DNA from: Syntrophomonadaceae bacterium
GTDB lineage: Bacteria > Bacillota_D > Dethiobacteria > DTU022 > PWGO01
Direction of reading: 5' to 3'
Length of the DNA stretch: 6,662 bases
Assembly: GCA_003554535.1 (NCBI GenBank)
Contig: PWGT01000090.1
Location: 1-6,662 of the forward strand
Shown here: piece by piece, positions 1,164 to 6,404 of the stretch
How the letters are laid out: every line of letters begins with the position of its first letter
Numbering within the stretch: position 1 is the first letter of the stretch
The notes under the pieces: model-generated
Database searches by the model: none
What the model saw: the letters and a program-made list of their open reading frames with translations, nothing else
Told to the model about the DNA's origin: nothing
Position numbers and translations under genes: made by a program

Positions 1164-1649
1164 TTAGGCAGGTTGAAACCCTGAAATATCCAAAATACTA
1201 CCCTTTCTTTCTCCCTCAGGCTTGAAGTTAGCCTTTACTTCCATACCGACTTCTACATCTCCCGGATTGCAATTTTCTAACCAGTGGACCAGATAACCAT
1301 CTGCAATTTTAATAACAGCTATGATGGAGGGAGATTCTTTTTGAGTGCCATCTTTTTCAACATAAGAAACTGTATAGGTATAAACCTCTCCCCTGGTTCC
1401 AACATCAATCCACTCCGACAATTCAGCAAAGCATCTTTCGCAGTACAATTTTCCCGGGACAAAGGTTAACTGGCAGTGAGGGCAGCTAGTTCCATAAATG
1501 CGCTCTTCTTCTTTAATTCCTTCCAAAAATTTTTGTCCAGCTAGACCAGCAGTATAGCGGTTTTTGACCGGAAAACTTACTACTTCGTCCGAATCCCAAT
1601 ATTTATTATCGATATTTTTGTTTATTCTTTCCACCAAACCCATTAGCAC
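1164..1649 (-). CDS. Zn-ribbon/OB-fold DUF35 protein, second copy (acyl-CoA-binding partner subunit)
   Basis: A 161-residue protein of the DUF35 family (rubredoxin-like zinc ribbon followed by an OB fold). The zinc site is C56-x2-C59 and C70-x2-C73. The OB fold runs from about residue 80 to the end, with the typical GEVYTYT strand near 87-93 and a closing stretch of the GMEVKANFKP type. Known relatives are non-catalytic subunits that bind thiolase-fold enzymes and help hold or channel acyl-CoA (for example BbsA, ChsH2 and the archaeal thiolase/HMG-CoA synthase partner). The GTG start at 1647-1649 is 5 bases after GGGAGG (1655-1660) and is preceded in frame by TAA; ATG at 1641-1643 (spacing 11) is the alternative. 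Only 14 bases separate it from the preceding DUF35 gene, so the two are probably translated together. It is clearly diverged from its neighbour, so it is probably a distinct subunit. Confidence 0.9.
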   Translation of the reverse strand: MLMGLVERINKNIDNKYWDSDEVVSFPVKNRYTAGLAGQKFLEGIKEEERIYGTSCPHCQLTFVPGKLYCERCFAELSEWIDVGTRGEVYTYTVSYVEKDGTQKESPSIIAVIKIADGYLVHWLENCNPGDVEVGMEVKANFKPEGERKGSILDISGFQPA

Positions 1650-1663: not shown

Positions 1664-2179
1664 TTAATAAGGCTTAAAATACTTAATATCAGTAATAGCT
1701 CCCGTTCTTTCTTCTGCGGGTTTCCACACTGCCTTTACTTTCATGCCGATGAAAATTTTATCCGTTTCTACCTCGCCCAAAAGGTGCAAAATTCCCATGC
1801 CCTGGGTAGCTCCATCAATTTCAATCACAGCTGGCAAGTGAGGATTTTGCCCTGGTTCAACCCGAGTAGCATCCCAATTAACCTGGCAAACAGAAAAGGT
1901 ATTTACCACTCCAGTATCTTCTACATATACCCAGTCATCAGAAGGACAATAACATAGCTCGCAAAACATCCGCGGCGGCAACATAATCCGGCGGCACTTG
2001 TTGCATTTTTTGGCTATGATTTTCCCGTTTTTTAATTCCTCCAGGTATCTGCCGATAGCCACCCCTGTATCCCAGGTATACCTGCAATTTAGGGCATCAT
2101 CTACTGTAAATATTTTATTTTGCTCCACATCTTTCCCAGAAAGGCCTGTGCCTCCCCTGACAAATTCTGTGTGATCCAT
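1664..2179 (-). CDS. Zn-ribbon/OB-fold DUF35 protein, first copy (acyl-CoA-binding partner subunit)
   Basis: A 171-residue DUF35 family protein. Residues 1-35 form an N-terminal extension leading to a helix around 40-50, followed by the zinc ribbon C59-x2-C62 and C73-x2-C76 (an extra C78 follows). The OB fold occupies about 85-171, with DTGVVNTFSV near 88-97 and GMKVKAVWKP as the closing strand. The family role is as a partner of thiolase-fold enzymes: the ribbon docks on the enzyme and the OB fold contacts CoA. The ATG at 2177-2179 has a modest upstream ribosome site (GGAAGGTGGGG). It lies 57 bases after thiolase-like gene 2 and 14 bases before the second DUF35 gene. Having as many DUF35 genes as thiolase genes suggests each thiolase-like chain has its own partner, or that the four chains form one complex; this is inference. 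Confidence 0.9.
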   Translation of the reverse strand: MDHTEFVRGGTGLSGKDVEQNKIFTVDDALNCRYTWDTGVAIGRYLEELKNGKIIAKKCNKCRRIMLPPRMFCELCYCPSDDWVYVEDTGVVNTFSVCQVNWDATRVEPGQNPHLPAVIEIDGATQGMGILHLLGEVETDKIFIGMKVKAVWKPAEERTGAITDIKYFKPY

Positions 2180-2236: not shown

Positions 2237-3394
2237 TTAAATTCCCAACACTGCTACTGAGCTCACCTGCATTAAATCACCCCAAGCCTGACAAACCCCA
2301 TATTTGGGTTTTCCGGGAACCTGTCTTTCGCCGGCCTCTCCTCGTAACTGCCAGAAAAGCTCAGCAACTTTCATTGTTCCTGCAGCAGCAATGGGATTGC
2401 CAACCCCCAAAAGCCCGCCTGAGGGGCACATGGGCAAGTTTCCATCCTGGTCAAAGTGACCGTCATTTAATAGCTCAACAGTTTTGCCCGGTGGAGATAG
2501 TTGCAAACCTTCCATATGGTGCAGTGCTTTATAATCAAAAGGATCATAAGGTTCGGCAATATCTATTTGCTTGGCGGGCTCAGTAATACCAGCCATATCA
2601 TAAGCCATTTTGGAAGCTTTTTCCAAATAACGGGGGTAATAAAGATCCCTGGTGGCCCAATAAGCAGTATCCAAATTCCAGCCTACACCCTCTACCCAAA
2701 CCGGTTTATCTGTTACCCGGCGCGCTACATGTTCTGCTGCCAAAACCACAGCAACGGCACCATCAGAAACAGGGCTTACATCTAGCCTGTTTACAGGATA
2801 AGCCATTACTTCCGAATTAAGAACATCTTCTAAGGTTACCTCCTCATTAAATTGGGAAGAAGGATGTTTAATGCCCTGATTTTTATTCTTAACCGCCACT
2901 TTGGCCATATCTTCCTTGGTATAGCCATAGGTATTCATATACCTATTCATCTCCATGGCAAATATCCATAGTAGAGTAGGCTGCAAAGGCCTTTCAGTAA
3001 TGTTATCAAAAATAGTTAGAAAAAAAGCCTGAGCATGCGGCATAGCGCTAGACATTTTTTCCTCACAAACTACTAAGCATGTATCAAACATTCCCGAAGC
3101 AATATGGTACCATCCATGAGCAAGGGCATGAACGCCAGTGGCTCCTCCTACAAAAACTCGCATAGTAGGCTTGTTCCATCCCCCACACCCATCTGCAAGA
3201 TATTCTCCTTTCTGATGAATACCATCAAATGCATCAGGAGCACTACCATGGGCTACAGATTCTATATCCTCCAAGTTAAGATCGCAACTATCCAGGGCAG
3301 CCCTGGTAGCTTGATAAGAAAGTTCCTTAGGGGTTTCCTGGGCTCTTCGAATGAAATTGGTCATTCCCGCCCCTACTACGCCAACTTTTCTCAT
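2237..3394 (-). CDS. Thiolase-fold protein 2 (SCP-x/lipid-transfer type), apparently lacking the catalytic cysteine
   Basis: A 385-residue thiolase superfamily protein of the branch that pairs with DUF35 subunits. It begins MRKVGVVGAG, and the N-terminal half runs to about 220 (DGAVAVVLAA at 211-220). Where SCP2-type thiolases have C-A-T-G, this protein has G84-A-T-G, so the acyl-accepting cysteine appears to be glycine. The HDxF position reads YDPF (Y283-F286), the GxGHP position reads GVGNP (N333 for His), and the C-terminal loop reads CQAWGD (368-373). Classical thiolysis therefore looks unlikely, while the fold and CoA-binding scaffold look intact. QLRGEAG (349-355) is typical of this branch. 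ATG at 3392-3394 is chosen because GGAGGG (3404-3409) is 9 bases upstream; a TTG at 3401-3403 would touch the ribosome site directly. It is a clear paralogue of its upstream neighbour, 65-75 bases away. Retro-aldolase or condensing activity is possible; the substrate is unknown. Confidence 0.88.
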   Translation of the reverse strand: MRKVGVVGAGMTNFIRRAQETPKELSYQATRAALDSCDLNLEDIESVAHGSAPDAFDGIHQKGEYLADGCGGWNKPTMRVFVGGATGVHALAHGWYHIASGMFDTCLVVCEEKMSSAMPHAQAFFLTIFDNITERPLQPTLLWIFAMEMNRYMNTYGYTKEDMAKVAVKNKNQGIKHPSSQFNEEVTLEDVLNSEVMAYPVNRLDVSPVSDGAVAVVLAAEHVARRVTDKPVWVEGVGWNLDTAYWATRDLYYPRYLEKASKMAYDMAGITEPAKQIDIAEPYDPFDYKALHHMEGLQLSPPGKTVELLNDGHFDQDGNLPMCPSGGLLGVGNPIAAAGTMKVAELFWQLRGEAGERQVPGKPKYGVCQAWGDLMQVSSVAVLGI

Positions 3395-3403
3395 GATACA
3401 CAA

Positions 3404-3409
3404 CCCTCC
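3404..3409 (-). promoter_or_regulatory. Ribosome binding site that fixes the start of thiolase-like gene 2
   Basis: GGAGGG on the minus strand. It directly abuts TTG 3401-3403, leaving no room for initiation there, and lies 9 bases from ATG 3392-3394. This trims three residues from the longest open frame. Confidence 0.8.
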
Positions 3410-3468
3410 GTTTTCCTTATTAATATCTTTAAATTTCCTAACTTCTTTACCAGGGTCAAAATAAAGCT

Positions 3469-4629
3469 TTAGTCTTCAATACCTAAAACAGCAGCCACTC
3501 CCGTAGCGGTTGGAATTCCCCTCCAGGAAAATGCCAGGCCAGTCCGAGCTTTATCCAATTGCTTTTTACCGGCCTCACCACGGAGCTGCAAAACCACTTC
3601 CATGACCTTATGTAAGCCATTACCTTCATGTAAATAACCTACCCCAAGATTGCCCCCAGAAACATTTACAGGGAAGTCTCCTTGATTACTAAAAAAGCCC
3701 TGTTCTAGCAAGTTGCCGGCCTCCCCACGAGTACAAATCTTCAAAGCCTCCAGGTGTTGCAACTCTTTGTATGAAAAAGTATCATCAATTTCGGCAAAAT
3801 CAATTTCTTTTCTGGGAGCTTTAATTCCAGCCATCCGATAAGCCTTTTCCCCTGCCAGGGAAGCATAGATAGCATCTCCCCATCCTTCTTCTCTGGTATC
3901 AAGATTGGGAGTATCAGTTGCCCATCCCATACCTTTGATCCAAACCGGTTTTTTACTCATTTGGCGAGCTTTTTCTTCTGATGCGAGTAACAGAACTATA
4001 GCACCGTCAACATCACCGCTGGTATCTAAATAGCTCAAAGGAAGGCACATAGGTGGAGAATTAAGGACGTCCTCAAACTCAATCTTGGCACCGTAAGCAG
4101 CAACAGGGTTATGCAATGCATTATATTTATTCTTTACCACTACTTTAGCACACTGCTCACGAGTAGCCCCTGTTTCGTAAAGATATCGGTTCATCTCCAT
4201 TCCTGCGATCATGTAGGGATTCTCGTTAAAAGGCCTTATAAATATGGGATCGCAGGCATAGGATACCATGTTATTTTTATTAGAAACATTTGAAGCCTTC
4301 GAAAAAGCTGAAGCTGCAACCACATCCATCTCCCCGGTTTGAATATGCATCATGGCCGATGCAATGCCCTGCATGCTATCACCAGCGATACTCTGCACAG
4401 GCTTGAGCACCGCTCCAAGCTGATCAGGGACATATTCATCAGCAATACTTACTCCTTCCATAAAATCCTCTGATGAAGCCACAAAAGCATCAATATCTTG
4501 GGGATGTATTCCCCCTGCATCTTCATAGCATTTTTGAGCAGCTTCAAAAATCATTTCCCGGTAAGACACATCCTGGGAGGTGGTTCGAAAACTGGTATAA
4601 CCTACTCCCACTATAGCTACTCTTTTCAT
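3469..4629 (-). CDS. Thiolase-fold protein 1 (SCP-x/lipid-transfer type), apparently lacking the catalytic cysteine
   Basis: A 386-residue thiolase superfamily protein, the first gene of the four-gene cassette. It starts MKRVAIVGVG. The nucleophile loop reads SIAGDSMQG (80-88): no cysteine is present between residues 35 and 125, and a gapless count back from the conserved D102 puts A82 at the cysteine position. The HDxF position reads DDTF (D282-F285), the GxGHP position reads GVGYL (Y332 for His, with H334 nearby), and the C-terminal loop reads SWRG (368-371) rather than the usual WGG. QLRGEAG (348-354) and EDVLNS (186-191) match thiolase-like protein 2, confirming paralogy. The GD-S pattern in the nucleophile loop recalls cysteine-less members of this branch in archaea and anaerobes (from memory, not searched). 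ATG 4627-4629 is preceded by AGGAGGG (4642-4648), 12 bases away. It may be a structural subunit, an aldolase-type enzyme, or half of a heteromeric active site. Confidence 0.88.
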   Translation of the reverse strand: MKRVAIVGVGYTSFRTTSQDVSYREMIFEAAQKCYEDAGGIHPQDIDAFVASSEDFMEGVSIADEYVPDQLGAVLKPVQSIAGDSMQGIASAMMHIQTGEMDVVAASAFSKASNVSNKNNMVSYACDPIFIRPFNENPYMIAGMEMNRYLYETGATREQCAKVVVKNKYNALHNPVAAYGAKIEFEDVLNSPPMCLPLSYLDTSGDVDGAIVLLLASEEKARQMSKKPVWIKGMGWATDTPNLDTREEGWGDAIYASLAGEKAYRMAGIKAPRKEIDFAEIDDTFSYKELQHLEALKICTRGEAGNLLEQGFFSNQGDFPVNVSGGNLGVGYLHEGNGLHKVMEVVLQLRGEAGKKQLDKARTGLAFSWRGIPTATGVAAVLGIED

Positions 4630-5615: not shown

Positions 5616-6404
5616 TTACTTACCTTTAAACTCAGCTTCCCGCCTTTCAACGAAAGATTTTAATCCTTCGGCAGCATCTTCACTGTTCATGATACCTTTC
5701 AGATCAGGAAGCAGATGAGAAATAGCCTCTTTTGTACCAGAAACCCTGGCCCTGCGGGAGGATATAAGCGATGTTTGTACCGCAAGCGGTGCCTGCCGGG
5801 CAATGCGATCGGTAAGTTCCAGGGCTTTGTCAAACTGATCACCCGGTTCCGTGATTTCTTGAACCAGCCCTAAACGATAAGCTTCCTGGGCTTTTATTTC
5901 ATCACCAGTAAGCAAATACCGCATAGCATTTCCCCAACCAACTTCTTCGAATAAACGCACAGTTGCTCCCCCTACCGGATAGATACCCCGCTTTACCTCG
6001 ATTTGTCCAAAACGGACGTTAGAAGCTGCTACACGAACATCAGTGGCCAATAAAAGTTCCAACCCGATTGTAAAACAAATACCCTGGACAGCCATCACCA
6101 TGGGCTTTGTTAACCTGTTATCCTCATCCAGACCAAAAGGATCTATTGAACCTTCAGGCAACTCAGGAAATTTTCCCTCCCCAAAAGTATCTGCCCATTT
6201 AATTAACTCCAACCCGGACGTAAAATGCTCGCCATGAGCGTAAAGCAAGCCACACCTGAGCTCCCTTTCATTTTGCAGTTGGCCAAAAGCTCTTGCCAGA
6301 TCCCAGTACATGTCCACATCGAAAGCATTCAATTTATCCGTTCTATTTATACCTATTAACAAGACATGACCTTTTTTATCAACAGTAATTTTGGCATTCT
6401 CCAT
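5616..6404 (-). CDS. Enoyl-CoA hydratase/isomerase family protein (crotonase fold)
   Basis: A 262-residue, full-length crotonase-fold protein, likely cytosolic. Oxyanion-hole elements are HFTSGLEL (60-67) and the glycine at 114 in FTIGLEL. The two glutamates corresponding to E144 and E164 of rat mitochondrial hydratase are present as E116 and E136 (in FGQIEVKRG), so syn-hydration of a 2-enoyl-CoA is chemically plausible. A segment around 73-99 rich in Pro, Gly and acidic residues forms the variable loop over the acyl pocket. ATG 6402-6404 follows AGGAGGT (6411-6417) with a 6-7 base gap, an excellent ribosome site. It heads the hydratase-HAD pair upstream of the thiolase/DUF35 cassette. By context it may supply the 3-hydroxyacyl-CoA that the cassette handles. 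Isomerase or hydrolase activity is possible in this superfamily, so the exact reaction is open. Confidence 0.92.
   Translation of the reverse strand: MENAKITVDKKGHVLLIGINRTDKLNAFDVDMYWDLARAFGQLQNERELRCGLLYAHGEHFTSGLELIKWADTFGEGKFPELPEGSIDPFGLDEDNRLTKPMVMAVQGICFTIGLELLLATDVRVAASNVRFGQIEVKRGIYPVGGATVRLFEEVGWGNAMRYLLTGDEIKAQEAYRLGLVQEITEPGDQFDKALELTDRIARQAPLAVQTSLISSRRARVSGTKEAISHLLPDLKGIMNSEDAAEGLKSFVERREAEFKGK

Follow-up and report, generated by a model that had tools for sequence, protein, structure and literature searches.

The genes considered here lie on contig PWGT01000090.1 of a Syntrophomonadaceae bacterium (assembly GCA_003554535.1), in a stretch of 6,662 nucleotides that was analyzed as a whole and is referred to below as the window. 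Two of them encode thiolase-fold proteins, P1 and P2, that lack the catalytic Cys and His residues of thiolases, and these are followed by genes for two DUF35 proteins, DUF35-a and DUF35-b. The absence of these residues from both paralogues had been proposed in a sequence-only reading of the DNA; it is confirmed here and proves to be more general than first noted. All features are on the minus strand, where the 5' to 3' order is crotonase, HAD-family hydrolase, P1, P2, DUF35-a, DUF35-b and, after a gap, an MBL-fold protein.

The open reading frames (ORFs) of P1 (3469..4629, 386 residues) and P2 (2237..3403) are both intact, and Thiolase_N and Thiolase_C_1 are matched above the Pfam cut-off in each, in keeping with their earlier description as full-length proteins. 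By these fold domains, both are members of the SCP2/DUF35-associated thiolase superfamily. The profile search that had been suggested as a check places P2 in PRK06065 (NCBIfam NF004721, 614 bits, cut-off 455). The nearest family to P1 is PRK06066 (NF004722), for which it scores 468, below the cut-off of 516; the archaeal P1 of locus L098 scores 694 (L and G numbers are our handles for loci and genomes). With the BbsB model, the two window proteins reach 140 and 99, the cut-off being 750. The names PRK06065 and PRK06066 do not occur among the literature matches listed, from a search with most subscription journals outside its scope. Translation of P2 from a TTG codon, used for the numbering here, gives 388 residues; an ATG nine bases downstream, at 3394, gives 385 residues, as in the majority of its closest homologues.

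DUF35-a (1664..2179, 171 residues, identified with Pfam) carries a zinc ribbon (Cys59, 62, 73, and 76) and an OB fold. DUF35-b (1164..1649, 161 residues) has the same arrangement (Cys56, 59, 70, and 73), with a zinc-ribbon score slightly under the Pfam cut-off, and its nearest solved chain is 3irb (SSO2064). Gaps of 65, 57, and 14 bases separate the four genes, each of which has a purine-rich stretch 5' of its start codon.

Active-site residues and their conservation

Residues were assigned by alignment with solved relatives (MAFFT). In P2, Gly87 (3143..3145) occupies the position of the nucleophilic Cys, the HDCF motif is replaced by a Y-D-x-F motif, Tyr286-Asp-Pro288-Phe (2537..2548), and Asn336 (2396..2398) stands at the His of the GHP motif. 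Tyr286 aligns with Tyr294 of the steroid aldolase Ltp2 and Tyr302 of the bile acid aldolase Sal, and Asn336 with Tyr344 and Gln352, respectively, the residues of these enzymes being numbered as in the available text of PMC12329534. In P1, the nucleophile site is a loop without Cys, Ala82-Gly83-Asp84-Ser85 (4375..4386), HDCF is replaced by Asp282-Asp-Thr-Phe (3775..3786), and the GHP His by Tyr332 (3634..3636), which aligns with Tyr344 of Ltp2. The register of the loop is uncertain by three residues, with Ser85 at the Cys column according to MAFFT or Ala82 if residues are counted backward from where the following helix ends; neither is conserved. The Cys residues of P1 are at 34, 126, 160, 195, and 299 only, and the stretch from 35 to 125 is, as had been stated, free of them.

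In both proteins the alignment lacks the nucleophilic Cys of C-x-x-G, the HDCF-type His/Cys and the GHP His. The Gly84 and Asn333 previously named in P2 were counted from the ATG and are the Gly87 and Asn336 given here; Tyr332 of P1 had also been correctly identified. The alignment upholds the argument drawn from these losses: to judge from their active sites, ordinary thiolysis is not possible for P1 or P2. Superposition of both predicted structures on solved relatives had been proposed, and this was achieved in part. The AlphaFold2 model of P1 was usable (predicted local distance difference test score (pLDDT) 73, predicted template modeling score 0.83), its comparison with the PDB giving matched ranges rather than residue pairs, whereas that of P2, built from 15 close sequences, was not (pLDDT 37).

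Conservation was assessed in two sets, the query together with its 120 best homologues (121 sequences) and members derived from the loci described below (127 for P2, including 30 from archaea; 122 for P1). One of the two peptide patterns used in the bacterial scan was [AV]EPYDPFxY, and the invariance of YDPF in the 80 scan loci is therefore partly built in; the 30 archaeal loci, found by profile search, and the 120 best homologues are free of this bias. Gly87, Tyr-Asp-Pro-Phe, Tyr291, Lys292, His295, His296, and Asn-Pro of P2 are present in 121/121 and 127/127 sequences, as is the combination of Gly, Tyr, and Asn at the Cys, HDCF, and GHP positions. The longer motifs Glu284-Pro-Tyr-Asp-Pro-Phe, Tyr291-Lys292, His295-His296, and Gly335-Asn-Pro are shared by all 127 bacterial and archaeal members. 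The P1 family is more varied. Its GHP position is His in 39, Asn in 28, Tyr in 22, Val in 18, and Arg in 4 of the 122 members, loop residue 82 is mostly Pro, Thr, Ala, Ser, or Gly (Cys in 3 of 121 close homologues), and position 85 is Gly, Ser, Phe, Ala, or Leu. Asp84 of the loop is steady (Asp 112, Glu 7, gap 3; n = 122).

Conservation on the scale seen in P2 indicates that its residue losses are not due to chance. Because its sites are invariant, P2 looks like the subunit that performs catalysis, through an active site that is fixed but is not that of a thiolase; because the equivalent sites of P1 drift, P1 looks like a degenerate, non-catalytic partner, and Tyr332, at a position that varies in the family, is unlikely to be catalytic.

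Distribution and relatives of the four-gene block

The bacterial scan used contigs from one genome per species, with the best 80 of 466 relatives kept; the archaeal set consists of the best 30 of 85 loci. The order P1, P2, DUF35-a, DUF35-b is found again in almost every bacterial or archaeal locus long enough to contain it. Record titles of the 80 scan loci include Syntrophomonadaceae, Anaerolineae and other Chloroflexi, Deltaproteobacteria, Actinobacteria, Acidobacteria, WOR-3, Planctomycetota, Krumholzibacteriota, an archaeon, and others. Of the 73 scan loci with room, a script identified 71 in which P1 lies no more than 3 kb upstream of P2 in the same orientation; the other two (L036 and L037) also have P1, in overlapping frames that the script missed. 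The same order holds in 29/29 archaeal loci with room. Two DUF35 genes lie downstream of P2 in 67/68 scan loci with room and in 29/30 archaeal loci, and the C4 zinc-ribbon pattern is found in 77/78 DUF35-a and 73/75 DUF35-b proteins of the scan set. An extra ORF lies between P1 and P2 in four Chloroflexi loci (L016, L027, L039, and L051), that of the last three being a PD-(D/E)XK protein (PF13366), and in the archaeal stretch L141 another ORF separates P2 from the DUF35 genes. For the phylum of archaeon L047, a profile search found the P2 family above cut-off in 85 of its 398 genomes. Elsewhere it is patchy (10/198, 5/299, and 3/201 genomes in the phyla of L045, L001, and L016). All of these counts include the genome used as center. 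Among 14 control genomes only Sulfolobus acidocaldarius is over the cut-off.

Kinship was examined in an unrooted maximum-likelihood tree of 72 proteins, in which Ltp2, BbsB, and the singly encoded L165 and L166 form long branches. The tandem pairs (53 rows) fall on one side of a branch with support of 100/100, apart from Ltp2 and Sal. These two group with 4u4e and two Cys-less single proteins (100/92), and the Cys thiolases form a third group (100/95). The state of the Cys changes once on the tree (71 scored rows, 13 with and 58 without). The P1 and P2 families each occupy one side of a branch (100/100). In the best tree they pair with each other (98/93), as do the P1-like and P2-like paralogues (91/83); forcing the P1 family together with the P1-like proteins, or the P2 family with the P2-like ones, was not rejected (p = 0.33 each in the approximately unbiased test), and one or two P1/P2 duplications are both compatible with the data. 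A Gly-Gly loop and the Tyr of Y-D-x-F are common to P2, Ltp2 (6ok1), Sal (9myr), and 4u4e, and neither is present in the 13 Cys-bearing rows; BbsB, 6esq, and 7yvy retain the Cys in the same alignment. The entry 4u4e, a putative thiolase of Sphaerobacter thermophilus placed in the group of Ltp2 and Sal, carries the motif YDSF and a Gly-Gly pair where the Cys would be.

Further Cys-less tandem pairs exist in some of the same genomes. Eight were found among the regions read of the genomes of L001, L045, and L023, one of them with a truncated first member that runs off its contig. The other seven are complete, and each begins with a P1-type protein, recognizable by a short loop containing Asp, and ends with a P2-type protein, whose loop has Gly-Gly-Thr. 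The motif Tyr and the Asn at the GHP position are present in 8/8 P2-type paralogues. Each of the seven paralogue regions read at length has at least one DUF35 gene beside the pair, with an acyl-coenzyme A (CoA) dehydrogenase gene in 6/7 and AMP-binding ligases in two. Genes for beta-keto acid cleavage enzymes lie near two paralogous pairs (L170:1317-2303 and L172:5343-6305). For the P2-type paralogues tested, the nearest NCBIfam model is PRK08313, with scores below its cut-off. Cys-less pairs with the P1-type before the P2-type and with DUF35 genes occur in L148-L153 and L161 (regions of genomes G001, G002, and G005). Among 13 singly encoded relatives from six block-holding genomes, ten keep the Cys, HD, and GHP, two (L165 and L166) are Cys-less with Gly-Gly, and one is unreadable.

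Neighboring genes and metabolic context

In the window, the block is preceded by genes for a crotonase/enoyl-CoA hydratase (5616..6404, Pfam/NCBIfam) and a HAD-family hydrolase (5591-4929, Pfam), and followed by that for the MBL-fold protein (854-3), which is cut by the window end and has listed NCBIfam matches that all fall below cut-off. In the nearest relative, L001, homologues of the crotonase and the MBL-fold protein likewise flank the block upstream and downstream. At other loci, neighbors were labeled from one annotated representative per cluster or by similarity search, rather than gene by gene. Acyl-CoA dehydrogenase genes are found in 24 of the 80 scan loci and 14 of 20 archaeal 20-kb stretches; an AMP-binding CoA ligase from one cluster is present in 11 of the 20. 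Another cluster has a gene near the block in L143, L144, and L145, its L145 representative passing the acetoacetate--CoA ligase cut-off (748 versus 521 bits). Assignment of a substrate by neighborhood was attempted and set aside: the Pfam tally of 86 same-strand neighboring ORFs from 33 of 34 selected loci, the remaining one having yielded no ORF (acyl-CoA dehydrogenase 13, AMP-binding ligase 5, mutase 3, CoA transferase 2, among the 25 of 81 families listed) fixes no substrate.

B12-dependent mutases are also encoded beside the block. Genes for their large and small subunits lie directly upstream of P1 in ten scan loci, mostly titled Deltaproteobacteria or relatives (L026, L045, L049, L052, L057, L063, L068, L070, L071, and L072). 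These loci also hold acyl-CoA dehydrogenase (ten), corrinoid adenosyltransferase (nine), and MeaB (five) genes, and in four of them (L052, L063, L068, and L072) the operon of the block goes on to encode a second mutase and an epimerase, which belong to the methylmalonyl-CoA branch, with a carboxyltransferase in three of the four. Aligned with a single 2-hydroxyisobutyryl-CoA mutase and a single methylmalonyl-CoA mutase as references, the block-adjacent mutases have Phe and Gln at the substrate positions in all 12 readable cases (the ten loci, L047, and L056), a type that we take to be isobutyryl-CoA-mutase-like. Five other mutases carry Tyr and Arg instead, namely the second copies in L052, L063, L068, and L072 and a distant one in L044. 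The motif FH[YF]PT occurs in ten of the 12 Phe/Gln mutases (e.g. L068:6463-8151), in place of the FD of L047, L056, and the Tyr/Arg mutases; this change may mark a new mutase substrate.

An acetone-degradation cluster of Desulfotomaculum is described, in the available text of PMC8084838, as containing genes for acetyl-CoA acetyltransferases, a DUF35 protein, and a B12 mutase whose proposed substrate is 2-hydroxyisobutyryl-CoA. A link to this pathway was dropped because the Ile and Asp present in the solved 2-hydroxyisobutyryl-CoA mutase are absent from the readable block-adjacent mutases. A possible scheme for the mutase loci is that the B12 mutase makes a 2-methylacyl-CoA, which dehydrogenase and hydratase would convert to a 3-hydroxy ester, from which the P1/P2/DUF35 complex would release propionyl-CoA.

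A candidate Cys-free aldolase and its alternatives

The closest parallels are two Cys-less aldolases that work with DUF35 partners. The Ltp2-ChsH2(DUF35) steroid aldolase of Thermomonospora curvata (6ok1) is of the thiolase superfamily and, like P2, has Gly for the nucleophilic Cys and a Tyr in Y-D-x-F. It differs in being a homodimer, in having its DUF35 as a domain of the hydratase subunit ChsH2, and in combining YDHF with Tyr344, where P2 has YDPF and Asn336. The Sal-Shy(DUF35) bile acid aldolase of Comamonas testosteroni (9myr) likewise has Gly at the Cys site, an essential Tyr, and, as in P2, an amide side chain at the GHP position. In the available text of PMC12329534, its Y302F variant is nearly inactive and the Gly is given as the reason for the absence of thiolysis. 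Sal is also a homodimer, with its DUF35 fused to a MaoC hydratase and with Cys304 as the acid, a position at which P2 has Pro.

Other assemblies resemble the block in their architecture. The benzoylsuccinyl-CoA thiolase BbsAB (7pxp), from an anaerobic CoA pathway, pairs a thiolase-fold subunit with a separate DUF35 subunit, but BbsB retains the Cys, HDAF, and GHP. In the acyltransferase PhlACB, PhlA is only distantly related to PhlC; the mycobacterial Ltp3/Ltp4 may be a further pair comparable to P1 and P2. Like the block, PhlACB (5m3k) combines active and inactive thiolase-superfamily subunits with a DUF35 protein, according to the available text of PMC2954200, but PhlC is catalytically active and both P1 and P2 are without the Cys.

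By analogy, the block appears to work like the Cys-less DUF35-dependent aldolases, and we see an even chance that it encodes a heteromeric, Cys-free acyl-CoA aldolase or carbon-carbon lyase with P2 as the catalytic subunit. From the residues, conservation, gene order, and kinship, all observed directly, we infer a complex, roles for its subunits, and a chemistry along the following lines. P1, P2, and the two DUF35 proteins would assemble into a single enzyme built like the known DUF35-thiolase complexes, except that a P1:P2 heterodimer, with P1 as a pseudo-enzyme partner, would replace the homodimer. Cys-based thiolysis would have been abandoned in favor of an aldol-type reaction that involves no covalent intermediate. 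The likeliest such reaction is the retro-aldol conversion of a 3-hydroxyacyl-CoA into a shorter acyl-CoA and a carbonyl compound, or the reverse. Gly87 would fill the site of the lost Cys and bind the beta-hydroxyl through its backbone, Tyr286 would act as the base, and Asn336 would polarize. The acid would be another residue, because Pro288 stands at the position of Sal's acid.

Measured against Ltp2 and Sal, the fit is incomplete. P2 alone has the Gly and, as Tyr286, the Tyr that is the base in these enzymes (P1 has Asp there), and the DUF35 partners are present at the gene level. The acid residue (Tyr344 in Ltp2 and Cys304 in Sal) is missing, with Asn336 and Pro288 at these positions, and the tandem pairs, on their own branch, lie outside the Ltp2/Sal clade. 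For these two reasons we regard the block as a variant of the Cys-less DUF35-dependent aldolases. Ltp2, named as a precedent in the sequence-only reading, stands as a near one from outside the clade of the pair, and DUF35 genes, two in number, are indeed present in the window. Both departures weigh against an aldolase, as do several further observations. The DUF35 proteins of the window are not fused to a MaoC hydratase, and hydratase genes, sought with the window crotonase as query and not as MaoC-type proteins, were seen close to the block in no loci other than the window, L001, L028, L056, and the archaeal L138 and L147. In 12 Chloroflexi loci, the genes beside the block are of the fabG/nusB/tatC kind and point to no pathway. 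The residues are not cleanly divided between the paralogous subunits, with a Tyr (YDAF) in 2/7 and the GHP-position Asn in 5/7 of the P1-type proteins and Pro after the Tyr motif in only 5/8 of the P2-type. The unusable model of P2 belongs on the same side of the balance.

The missing acid residue also leaves some room for a different non-covalent chemistry on the same scaffold, in which P2 would stabilize an enolate during decarboxylation of a malonyl-type CoA ester or during hydration/dehydration. The available text of PMC12329534 reports slow malonyl-CoA decarboxylase activity for TbSLP, a Cys-less thiolase-like protein, and the extension of four block operons into the methylmalonyl-CoA branch would suit such a role. 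The same text records no such activity for Sal, however, the block-adjacent mutases are of the Phe/Gln rather than the methylmalonyl (Tyr/Arg) type in 12/12 cases, and P2 retains the aldolase-type Gly-Gly and Tyr; we consider this chemistry rather unlikely. The complex might also be non-catalytic and bind or deliver acyl-CoA; the nucleophile and GHP positions of P1 have lost their conservation, and delivery of acyl-CoA was once proposed for DUF35 proteins in the available text of PMC2954200. Such an assembly of pseudo-enzymes is hard to reconcile with P2 motifs that are invariant in 127/127 members, beyond the needs of a scaffold (EPYDPF being biased by the search pattern in the 80 scan loci), and we judge it distinctly improbable. 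An ordinary thiolase with a relocated nucleophile, such as Cys326 of P2 or a P1 residue reaching across the dimer, would account for the retention of Cys326 in 118/121 close homologues and for the loop Cys in 3/121 P1 homologues, where the window protein has Ser85. Position 326 is, however, Ser (24) or Asn (6) in 30/30 archaeal P2 proteins, position 85 of P1 varies, and the GHP and HDCF residues have been lost as well, so that we give this explanation very little credence.

Extending the aldolase reading beyond the window, we tentatively propose, as a generalization that could well prove wrong, that tandem Cys-less pairs constitute a large class of acyl-CoA aldolases that are obligate heteromers, old in origin and distinct from the steroid aldolases, in bacteria and archaea and in several paralogous versions per genome in some. 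Catalysis would depend on a new combination of residues in the P2-type subunit: Gly in place of the Cys, the Tyr of the motif, Asn in place of the GHP His and, in the P2 family, Pro after Tyr-Asp. The shortened Asp loop of the P1-type would complete or gate the site. In the metabolism of branched or short-chain acyl-CoAs, the class would cleave or form a carbon-carbon bond, and at some loci this step would be linked to a B12 acyl-CoA mutase of the Phe/Gln type and would supply propionyl-CoA to the methylmalonyl pathway. Current labels are "thiolase domain-containing" in NCBIfam and acetyl-CoA C-acetyltransferase in some source annotations. If the aldolase reading is right, the plain-thiolase label misassigns a step in the acyl-CoA metabolism of archaea and anaerobic bacteria, and the thiolase fold would offer a new catalytic solution for carbon-carbon bond chemistry.

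The block also bears on a protein of known structure. SSO2064 of Sulfolobus solfataricus (3irb), described in the available text of PMC2954200 as the first structural representative of DUF35, was solved alone, and that text names none of SSO2061, SSO2062, and SSO2063. The DUF35-b protein of the archaeal genome G596 (L098:3188-3619), encoded by the fourth gene of its block, is identical to SSO2064 over 144 residues, and the structure therefore belongs to the block; should the aldolase reading be correct, SSO2064 gains its likely partners.

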